Of a stretch of 60,475 bases of DNA, positions 42,691-59,630 are shown piece by piece. The notes under the pieces are model-generated. The model was not told where the DNA came from. It ran no database searches and saw only the letters and a list, made by a program, of their open reading frames with translations. The stretch is taken from contig CAMPAL010000003.1 in assembly GCA_946631855.1 (NCBI GenBank), positions 1 to 60,475 of the forward strand, given 5' to 3'. Position 1 is the stretch's first letter; every line of letters begins with the position of its first letter. Source of the DNA: an uncultured Treponema sp. GTDB lineage: Bacteria > Spirochaetota > Spirochaetia > Treponematales > Treponemataceae. The position numbers were made by a program, and so were the translations under genes.

Positions 42691-42769
42691 GGGGTCTGTC
42701 CCCTATTGTATGTCCCTGATAGTGAAAAGTTCTTCCACCATCAGGGGGGGCCAGCAGGGGTCTGTCCCC
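42691..42769 (+). repeat. Two exact motif copies downstream of pyrG (42691-42703 and 42757-42769)
   Basis: 13/13 each, intergenic, flanking a CCCTGAT...ATCAGGG inverted repeat. Confidence 0.8.
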
Positions 42770-42805
42770 TCCTGTTTCAAATCTTTCAAAATCCAAAATT
42801 ACCGA

Positions 42806-42876
42806 ACGGAAATTTCCGCAAACCTTATAATAAAAAGGAATATTCCCAAAATTTGAAAATTTACGGAAAAATCCGT
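42806..42876. promoter_or_regulatory. Two related palindromes upstream of the XRE regulator
   Basis: ACGGAAATTTCCG (42806-42818) and ACGGAAAAATCCGT (42863-42876). Confidence 0.5.
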
Positions 42877-42888
42877 CAAAATATTTGT

Positions 42889-43236
42889 ATGAATTTTTGG
42901 GAACGAGTAGATGCTCTTATCGTTGATAAAAATCTTACAAGAAAAGCTTTAGCACAAGATGCAGGTTTTAATGTTTCAAATATAGGAAAAGGAATTACAA
43001 ACAATAACATACCGGCTGCAGACACAGCAGTTAGAATAGCAAAAATACTTGGTACAAGCGTTGAATACCTTGTAACTGGTGAAGAAGTTTCCACCAGAAA
43101 ACATTCCTACAAAATGGATGATTACTACAAATATTCAAAAATAATCAAAGCCTTAAACAATATTCCTGAAGAATCACGCTCTTCTGTTGAATTATTTCTA
43201 AACGACCTTTCCAGCAAATATCACAGTTCAAAATAA
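42889..43236 (+). CDS. XRE-family transcriptional regulator
   Basis: MNFWERVDALIVDKNLTRKALAQDAGFNVSNIGKGITNNNIPAADTAVRIAKILGTSVEYLVTG HTH domain; ORF opens at 42706 but the N-terminal extension encodes repeat DNA. Confidence 0.85.
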   Translation: MNFWERVDALIVDKNLTRKALAQDAGFNVSNIGKGITNNNIPAADTAVRIAKILGTSVEYLVTGEEVSTRKHSYKMDDYYKYSKIIKALNNIPEESRSSVELFLNDLSSKYHSSK

Positions 43237-43280: not shown

Positions 43281-43337
43281 TTGACAAAGATTCGGGGTGG
43301 TTGTATATATTATATATACCCACAAACCTAGTAGGTA
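43281..43337 (+). promoter_or_regulatory. Promoter and operator of the metY-like gene
   Basis: TTGACA-17-TATATA within GTATATATTATATATAC, then TACCCACAAACCTAGTAGGTA; same architecture as 59574-59630. Confidence 0.7.
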
Positions 43338-43353
43338 AATAATAAAGGAGGAC

Positions 43354-43434
43354 ATGATGAAAGTTTATTTTGAGAAACTTGTTAGAGAAAATTTTAGAAA
43401 TGGAGTCATGTGCTCATGTAAATGCATTCACTAA
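43354..43434 (+). CDS. Cys-containing leader peptide, MMKVYFEKLVRENFRNGVMCSCKCIH
   Basis: AAAGGAGG SD just upstream; ends MCSCKCIH before stop; followed by CCGCA-AAG-TGCGG stem and T8 before the metY-like start. Confidence 0.65.
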   Translation: MMKVYFEKLVRENFRNGVMCSCKCIH

Positions 43435-43506
43435 CAAAATAACTAACCTTTACCACCGCAAAGTGCGGACATTATTAATTTTTTTTATAAATAGGAGATT
43501 ACAATT

Positions 43507-44793
43507 ATGGCAGATTTTTCAAATACAAAATTCGAAACAAAACAGTTACACATTGGACAGGAAACTCCTGATCCAGCATCAGATTCAAGAGCTGTTCCAA
43601 TTTATCAGACAACTTCTTACGTATTCCGTAATTCACAGCACGCCGCTGACCGTTTTGGTCTTGCAGATGCAGGAAACATCTACGGACGTCTTACAAACTC
43701 AACTCAGGGAGTTTTTGAAGCAAGAATTGCCGCTTTGGAAGGTGGTTCTGCAGCCTTAGCAGTTTCTTCTGGTGCCGCAGCAATTACATACGCAATCGAA
43801 GCCATTGCCCAGGCAGGTGATCATGTTGTTGCTCAGAAAACAATCTACGGGGGAACATACAATCTTCTTAAGCACACACTTAAACCATTTGGAGTTGAAA
43901 CAACTTTCGTAGATGTACACAACTTAAAAGAAGTAGAAGCAGCTATTAAAGACAATACAAAAGTTCTTTACCTTGAAACACTTGGAAATCCAAATTCAGA
44001 TGTTCCAGATCTTGATGCACTTATCGCACTTGGTCACAAATATGGTCTTGCAGTAATTGTTGATAATACTTTCGGAACACCTTACTTAATCCGTCCTCTT
44101 GAACACGGAGCTGACGTAGTAGTTCATTCTGCAACAAAGTTCATTGGTGGACACGGAACAACTCTTGGTGGAATTATCATTGAATCTGGTAAAACAAACT
44201 GGAAATCTGGAAAATTCCCAAGCATTGCAACTCCAAACGAATCATACCATGGAGTAAGTTTTGCTGATGCAGTTCCTGGTGCAGCATACGTAACTTACAT
44301 CAGAGCAATCCTCCTCCGCGATACAGGTGCTTCTATTTCACCTTTCAACGCGTGGGCATTAATTCAGGGAACAGAAACACTTTCTCTTCGCGTAGAACGT
44401 CATGTTGAAAACACAAAGAAAGTTGTAGAATTCCTTGCAAAAAATCCAAAAGTAACTAAAGTTAATCATCCGTCATTAAAAGATCATCCAGATCACGCTT
44501 TATATCAGAAATACTTCCCTAATGGAGGAGCTTCAATCTTCACTTTCGAAATTAAAGGTGGAAAAGAAGAAGCCTGGAGATTTATTGATAACCTTCAGAT
44601 TTTCAGTCTTCTTGCAAATGTTGCTGATGTTAAATCTCTGGTTATTCATCCTGCTACAACAACTCACTCTGAACTTAGTCCAGAAGAACTTGCAGAACAG
44701 GGAATCACACAGAGTACAATCAGACTTTCAATTGGTACTGAACATATTGATGATATTATTGCGGATTTGGAAAGAGGATTTGCAGCTGTATAA
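43507..44793 (+). CDS. O-acetylhomoserine/O-acetylserine sulfhydrylase (Cys/Met PLP enzyme)
   Basis: FETKQLHIGQETPDPASDSRAVPIYQTTSYVF; SATKFIGGHGTTLGG PLP lysine; IRLSIGTEHIDDIIADLE. Confidence 0.93.
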   Translation: MADFSNTKFETKQLHIGQETPDPASDSRAVPIYQTTSYVFRNSQHAADRFGLADAGNIYGRLTNSTQGVFEARIAALEGGSAALAVSSGAAAITYAIEAIAQAGDHVVAQKTIYGGTYNLLKHTLKPFGVETTFVDVHNLKEVEAAIKDNTKVLYLETLGNPNSDVPDLDALIALGHKYGLAVIVDNTFGTPYLIRPLEHGADVVVHSATKFIGGHGTTLGGIIIESGKTNWKSGKFPSIATPNESYHGVSFADAVPGAAYVTYIRAILLRDTGASISPFNAWALIQGTETLSLRVERHVENTKKVVEFLAKNPKVTKVNHPSLKDHPDHALYQKYFPNGGASIFTFEIKGGKEEAWRFIDNLQIFSLLANVADVKSLVIHPATTTHSELSPEELAEQGITQSTIRLSIGTEHIDDIIADLERGFAAV

Positions 44794-44895: not shown

Positions 44896-45831
44896 ATGTC
44901 AAAAATTTACACATCAGTTGATCAGTTAATTGGTCACACACCACTTCTTGAACTTACACATCTTGAAAAAGAATTTGGTCTTAAAGCAAAAGTTCTTGCA
45001 AAACTCGAAGCTTTCAATCCTGCAGGCAGCGTAAAAGATCGTATTGCTAAAAATATGATTGACCAGGCAGAAAAAAAAGGAAAGCTAAAACCTGGTGCAA
45101 CAATCATTGAACCAACTTCTGGAAATACAGGTATTGGTCTTGCTTCTGTTGCAGCTGCAAGAGGATATAAAATTGTTATCGTAATGCCAGAAACAATGTC
45201 TATCGAACGCCGTCAGATTATGAAAGGCTATGGTGCAGAACTGGTTTTGACAGAAGGCGCAAAAGGTATGAAAGGTGCCATCGAAAAAGCTGATGAACTT
45301 GCAAAACAGATTCCAGGCTCATGGATTGCCGGTCAGTTCATCAATCCTGATAACCCTGCTACCCACGTAGAAACAACAGGTCCAGAAATCTGGGAAGATA
45401 CAGACGGTAAAGTTGATTATTTTGTTGCCGGTGTTGGTACAGGTGGAACAATTACTGGTGTTGGAAAATTCCTCAAATCTAAAAAAGCTGATGTAAAAAT
45501 TGTTGCTGTTGAACCTGCTACTTCTGCAGTTCTTTCAAAAGGAACTCCTGGTTCACACAAAATTCAGGGAATTGGAGCAGGCTTTGTTCCAGATGTTCTT
45601 GATACAAAAATCTATGATGAAATTATCACTGTAGAAAACGAAGCTGCTTTTGAATATGGCAGATTGACTGGTCATAAAGAAGGTTTCTTAGTTGGTATTT
45701 CTGCAGGTGCCGCAATAAAAGCTGCAATTGATCTTGCAAAAAGACCAGAAAGTGAAGGAAAAACAATTGTAGTTCTTTTGCCAGATAATGGTGATAAATA
45801 TCTTTCTACACCATTATTCGCCGAAGAATAA
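44896..45831 (+). CDS. cysK: Cysteine synthase (O-acetylserine sulfhydrylase)
   Basis: [53 protein letters not shown]. Confidence 0.95.
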
Positions 45832-59573: not shown

Positions 59574-59630
59574 TTGACTATTCTTCTTAGAGGCTGTATA
59601 TATTATATATACCTACTAAACAAGTAGGTA
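59574..59630 (+). promoter_or_regulatory. Promoter and operator of the amino-acid-binding protein gene
   Basis: TTGACT-17-TATATA in GTATATATTATATATAC (59596-59612), then perfect inverted repeat TACCTACT-AAACA-AGTAGGTA (59610-59630). Confidence 0.7.

Follow-up and report, generated by a model that had tools for sequence, protein, structure and literature searches.

A leader-peptide family of Treponemataceae as a candidate translational attenuator of sulfur-amino-acid genes

The leader and its downstream genes in the window

Does the short open reading frame (ORF) that runs into Met and Cys codons just ahead of an O-acetylhomoserine sulfhydrylase gene control this gene, and at which step would it do so? 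The question is raised by a locus in a stretch of 60,475 nucleotides from an uncultured Treponema sp. (contig CAMPAL010000003.1), here called the window, for which a sequence-only reading had suggested cysteine-responsive attenuation by the translating ribosome. On balance, we lean towards the view that the window carries a member of a Treponemataceae leader-peptide family that regulates sulfur-amino-acid genes through translational attenuation; such a switch may enable the cell to detect cysteine shortage.

The elements named in that reading were borne out by the window sequence, all on the forward strand. The leader ORF (MMKVYFEKLVRENFRNGVMCSCKCIH*, 43354-43434), which is conserved in 113 loci, starts with ATGATG at 43354 behind a strong Shine-Dalgarno (SD) sequence (AAAGGAGG, 43344-43351), and its Met and Cys codons precede a TAA at 43432-43434. 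The leader contains the putative nascent-peptide core FEKLVRENFRNGVM (codons 0-13, 43369-43410), the peptide segment FEKLVRENFRNG, and codons 12-17 (GTCATGTGCTCATGTAAA, 43405-43422), which include the first Cys codons. The leader SD belongs to a first RNA strand that is predicted to pair with codons 12-15, while codons 12-17 form the second strand, an anti-SD to the leader SD and AUG. Further downstream, the short stem CCGCA-AAG-TGCGG (43456-43468), a T8 tract (43479-43486) and the gene SD AGGAG (43493-43497) were all present as described; in the predicted fold, the T8 tract can pair with AGGAG in a weak A-U/G-U hairpin (43479-43497). The next gene is indeed metY, encoding O-acetylhomoserine sulfhydrylase (43507-44793; PF01053; TIGR01326, 612.6 bits, above the cut-off), and it is followed by cysK, encoding cysteine synthase A (44896-45831; TIGR01139, 449.9 bits, above the cut-off). 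Just 5' of the leader, an ORF with a Cro/CI-type helix-turn-helix domain occupies positions 42706-43236.

The leader peptide had no match among NCBIfam or Pfam models. Rfam gave no match anywhere in the window, in 16 leader loci, or in 16 metY loci that had no recognised leader when screened (most of these still have none, and a variant may be present in one or two). A riboswitch or other known RNA was rejected on the basis of these results for the window and the 32 related loci.

Distribution of the leader family

Comparison with related treponemes, which the sequence-only reading had proposed as its check, revealed that the leader is real and conserved at sulfur-amino-acid genes. The 26-residue peptide found matches at E<=0.02 in approximately 71 of 196 Treponemataceae genomes from six genera, and when 395 genomes from the whole phylum were searched with a profile, the leader proved almost confined to this family. 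Named records with the leader are Treponema bryantii, T. porcinum, T. zioleckii, T. saccharophilum and T. berlinense, and many gut and rumen MAGs also carry it. The sole strong match outside Treponemataceae (L120 in G231) comes from a MAG that is 86% complete and assigned to a different family of the phylum; it precedes a metY gene resembling those of Treponema, and may represent a misbinned contig, contamination or transfer.

After the removal of duplicates, 113 distinct loci remained. In most of them the gene 3' of the leader is metY; the others include cysK, metQ, metN, genes for cystathionine-type PLP enzymes, amino-acid binding proteins, MtbA-like methyltransferases and LanM-like proteins, and further genes. 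A genome may hold up to four leader copies, each before different genes. At five loci (L146, L144, L184, L201 and L136), the leader precedes a protein of approximately 476 residues with partial similarity to LanM/lanthionine synthetases, far below the cut-off, which is an unexpected member of a sulfur regulon. At L138, L149, L157, L158, L192, L193 and L202 it stands before a UroD/MtbA-like methyltransferase, possibly an enzyme related to methyl groups or to methionine. In addition, palindromic repeats of REP-like appearance (e.g. AGGCGAGAGGGTAGCGACCAACGAAGTGGGCGCGCAGGGGGAGACTTCCCCC) lie between leader and gene at L141, L139, L174, L168, L116 and L196, and such repeats recur in several Treponema genomes.

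The core is conserved at the amino-acid level

Whereas the sequence-only reading had stressed the Cys run, the most conserved part of the leader proved to be the core FEKLVRxNFRxGxM, which is common to all 113 loci without a single insertion or deletion and ends in an invariant Met-13. Over codons 0-11, pN/pS was 0.11 and pS was 0.76, with synonymous sites near saturation. All synonyms are in use at these codons, with less than 0.55 bit at each synonymous position relative to codon usage in the downstream genes, and the residues are fixed. This combination of free synonymous sites and fixed residues indicates that selection acted on the peptide. The leader therefore displays the property sought in an arrest peptide, namely a peptide kept independently of its nucleotide sequence.

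An RNA code in codons 12-18

In the 113 loci, codons 12-18 hold a second code, at the level of RNA, that forms an anti-SD. The usual sequence of codons 12-17 is GUCAUGUGCCUCUGUUGU, which can base-pair with AGGAGGCAnAUGA of the same leader. Of 65 Val codons at position 12, 62 are GTC (5 expected), and CTC accounts for 44 of the 49 Leu codons at position 15 (5 expected); codon 14, often Arg, is almost always TGY or CGY. We attribute these biases to pairing of the RNA with the leader SD. The duplex of the second strand with the leader SD had a mean energy of -12.8 kcal/mol, compared with -8.9 kcal/mol for synonymous recodings, and codons 0-5 and 6-11 showed no such effect. The tail also fitted the SD and AUG of its own leader better than those of swapped loci (z -7.4), and the choice of Cys or Arg at codon 14 followed A or G at the SD flank (Fisher p 1.2e-5); these permutation and Fisher tests treat loci as independent and do not fully correct for relatedness, so that the p-values are optimistic. 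In the own-versus-swapped test, reversed tails, codons 3-11 and gene-internal controls were not significantly below chance. Even the rare codon-14 variants TAC, TCT and ATT match altered SD flanks. The predicted leader-SD hairpin is clear in the window copy, with GAG and ACAUGAU pairing with GUCAUGU and CUC; the window leader as a whole was no more structured than its shuffles (z 0.19). An RNA-polymerase pause motif around ATG-YG was also considered, and was dropped when SD pairing explained the same bases.

Strong amino-acid conservation, together with an RNA signal that is strongest at the leader's own SD, would also suit a small protein that is functional as such and autoregulates its translation by sequestering its SD, with cysteines that serve the product, for instance in metal binding, instead of sensing in cis. 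However, a genome may have up to four copies, mostly placed directly upstream of genes for sulfur-amino-acid transport or biosynthesis, which argues for action in cis, and the Cys tail is variable and at times absent. We therefore consider a small protein of this kind very unlikely.

Cysteine codons of the tail

The Cys enrichment noted earlier is real: Cys makes up 37% of tail residues, compared with 0.25% of residues in the downstream genes. Among leaders that reach these positions, 87% have Cys at codon 16 and 75% at codon 17. Where these codons are unpaired, Cys is still found at codon 16 in 13 of 17 loci (76%) and at codon 17 in 14 of 24 (58%). Because Cys persists without pairing, Cys-16 and Cys-17 appear, from these counts, to be selected as cysteine, while codon 14 seems to be largely an RNA position. 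A reading of codons 13-14 (Cys/Met) as a pure amino-acid signal was rejected, since codon 14 is nearly always TGY or CGY and its exceptions pair with an altered SD flank. Of the residues that had been taken as the signal, Met-13 and the first Cys, at codon 14, are constrained by SD pairing, as are codons 12-15 in general. Moreover, the Cys run cannot explain everything, since tail Cys is absent from five of the 113 leaders and occurs only once in another 16.

In a rival explanation, the nascent chain itself would sense cysteine, O-acetylserine/homoserine or another sulfur metabolite in the exit tunnel and stall the ribosome, as in TnaC or SpeFL, with the Cys codons being secondary. The core varies less than the Cys tail, shows no change in length across the 113 loci, and stands at a fixed distance from codons 14-17; in addition, leaders that end in MCR*, MCV*, MRF* or even GRM* persist upstream of metY or metQ. 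Nevertheless, Cys at codons 16 and 17 is far above background even when unpaired, which argues that codon identity matters too, and we regard ligand sensing by the nascent chain as rather unlikely to be the main principle.

Pairing with the SD of the downstream gene

Translational attenuation by the leader calls for a gene SD that can be sequestered by a segment masked during leader translation. When the full 27-nt tail was used and redundancy was removed, the tail paired with the SD of its own downstream gene better than expected in the family (z -3.0), most strongly for metY alone (z -3.5), and the pairing was not significant for non-metY genes (z -0.8). The first own-versus-swapped test, with an 18-nt strand, had been negative (p 0.15), and pairing with the gene SD is therefore less secure than pairing with the leader SD. 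Its mean energy is a modest -9.6 kcal/mol, and the window copy is weak (-4.4 kcal/mol). In every state tested, the gene SD of the window was predicted to be paired within the local U-rich hairpin; according to these folds, this hairpin may close it instead of the anti-SD.

Some individual loci support the pairing. At L097 and L103, GCTCCTGTT pairs with AACAGGAGC, and at L105 and L126, ACTCCTGTT pairs with AACAGGAGT; at these loci, a substituted base in one strand has a matching substitution in the other. Complementarity between tail and gene SD reaches approximately 13 pairs at L164 and L128. The L127 leader ends immediately behind Met-13, and its complementary segment is found 3' of the stop codon.

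Folding with a ribosome-sized block pointed in the same direction. A block at codon 13 or 17 raised the mean predicted accessibility of the gene SD from 0.32 to approximately 0.42, and with blocks at codons 13-17, the gene SD opened by more than 0.2 in 29-31 loci and closed in 3-5. A block at codon 5 changed accessibility by only +0.02, versus +0.10 for one at codon 16 (paired p 0.0007).

Terminators and leader-gene gaps

An alternative suggested by a leader with runs of the regulatory amino acid, followed in the window by a stem and T8, is transcription attenuation of the classical trp/his type. This mechanism depends on an intrinsic terminator between leader and gene. The scan found none in the window, and a terminator-like element occurs in only 5 of 110 leader-gene gaps; furthermore, T8 begins 10 nt past the short stem, which is thus not a terminator. 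The comparative data bring terminator-based attenuation close to refutation, and we consider it extremely improbable. The sequence-only reading had allowed for a translational effector step given the shortness of the stem, and this option fits the data better than a terminator does.

Attenuation of transcription by Rho, governed by translation of the leader, would not need intrinsic terminators and would tolerate gaps that vary widely in length and sequence, as these do; it has been put forward as a weak prediction for mycobacterial cys leaders (PMC1262725). However, some gaps measure only 21-50 nt or are negative, the leaders of L096 and L103 overlapping metY, which leaves little untranslated RNA, and this scheme does not explain the anti-SD signal at the gene SD. 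Rho-dependent attenuation is accordingly assigned a small probability.

In approximately 30 of the 113 loci, a hairpin of 6-8 bp starts 19-26 nt after Met-13, a position that would be near the leading edge of a ribosome sitting on the Cys codons. As a universal element, this post-stop hairpin was rejected because it is clear only in these loci.

Promoter, operator and a candidate CymR-like repressor

A putative promoter, TTGACA-17 nt-TATATA, was read from the sequence upstream of the leader (43281-43309, forward strand); a strict consensus scan listed none. In most relatives, the -35 TTGACA lies inside the palindrome ACCTATTGACATAGTAGGT, and a second full copy is located just past the -10. The window copy is missing the palindrome around TTGACA, and only a degenerate copy of the 19-bp operator ACCTAnTnnnnnAnTAGGT (ACCCACAAACCTAGTAGGT, 43318-43336, 2 mismatches) is left there. 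Elsewhere in the source genome, the palindrome precedes a second sulfhydrylase gene (on contig C9), metK and several genes for binding proteins. Within the window itself, a perfect palindrome, ACCTACTAAACAAGTAGGT, the same box as at the leader promoters, lies at 59611-59629, approximately 58 bp upstream of a gene for an amino-acid-type substrate-binding protein.

At G000:C10:33232-33250 (L222), the palindrome stands directly beside an Rrf2 gene that is divergent from another ORF. The best NCBIfam match of this Rrf2 gene is CymR, at 110.8 bits, below the equivalog cut-off of 195. Its product is a candidate master repressor of the sulfur regulon. Since the palindrome occurs at sulfur genes and adjoins the Rrf2 gene, transcription of the leader-gene units is probably controlled by a CymR-like Rrf2 repressor as a first layer. 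The likeness to the cysteine regulon of the Rrf2-family regulator CymR in Firmicutes lies in this gene and the shared palindromic operator beside it. It differs in that the Treponema Rrf2 protein scores below the cut-off and would act on transcription, with the leader as a second layer.

A model of the leader switch

Translational attenuation, our preferred explanation, builds on features shown by sequence statistics: conservation at the peptide level, an excess of Cys codons, anti-SD pairing with covariation, and the absence of terminators. From these we infer ribosome stalling or nascent-chain arrest, the cysteine signal, the sense in which the switch turns ON or OFF and what the conserved peptide contributes, all of which would operate as follows. 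A ribosome would start at the leader SD and make FEKLVRxNFRxGxM, which would fill the upper exit tunnel as codons 14-17, mostly Cys, are decoded; the conserved core may set or lengthen a pause at this point. Pairing of the anti-SD codons with the leader SD and AUG could shut the leader, and pairing with the gene SD could shut the gene. A ribosome held up on these codons, by a shortage of Cys-tRNA or by its nascent chain, would mask the anti-SD and leave the gene SD free (ON). If the ribosome runs through and leaves, the anti-SD would be released and could close the gene (OFF). In a fuller and considerably more tentative version, approximately 20 codons would form a dual-code element and serve as a module across the sulfur regulon, atop the CymR-like repressor: they would encode FEKLVRxNFRxGxM as a nascent-chain arrest peptide, sense cysteine through the Cys codons, and provide an anti-SD that toggles between two ribosome-binding sites.

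The family is of interest in several respects. Leader control of cysteine genes has been described in Actinobacteria, and the version in this spirochaete family is apparently independent and strongly conserved. It provides a candidate arrest peptide with more than 100 natural variants. As comparison can disentangle constraints on the nucleotides from those on the peptide within the same codons, stalling, sensing and SD switching are directly testable in standard reporters.

Comparison with known systems

In the literature searched, which covered few subscription journals, no mention of the core peptide or of a Treponema cysteine leader was found. Cys-rich leaders without a conserved terminator have been predicted for mycobacterial cys operons (PMC1262725), and leaderless polycysteine ORFs that respond to cysteine are described in mycobacteria (Canestrari 2020, as cited in PMC9094748). 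As far as that secondary account describes them, these small ORFs resemble the Treponemataceae leaders in being short, having Cys codons near the stop, and preceding sulfur genes without a conserved terminator; a response to cysteine is proposed for both. Set against the same account, the start is different: the mycobacterial ORFs are leaderless, whereas a strong SD is found in the window and in almost all Treponemataceae loci. Compared with the mycobacterial ORFs as summarised there, the Treponemataceae leader also adds a core of 14 conserved residues and a tail whose codons serve at the same time as an anti-SD.

In the ermC leaders and in the Trp leader rtpL-rtpA of B. subtilis, translation of the leader sets the accessibility of the next gene's SD, and rtpL uses starvation for its codons. 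In contrast to these systems, the anti-SD of the Treponemataceae leader lies inside the leader ORF and could close either the leader SD or the gene SD, and the core is conserved. TnaC and SpeFL are ligand-sensing arrest peptides, short leaders conserved at the amino-acid level upstream of a metabolic operon, and the family described here shares with them this conservation of a short leader before a metabolic operon. It differs from them in that no sequence similarity is apparent by eye and the position of the stop is not fixed relative to the core.
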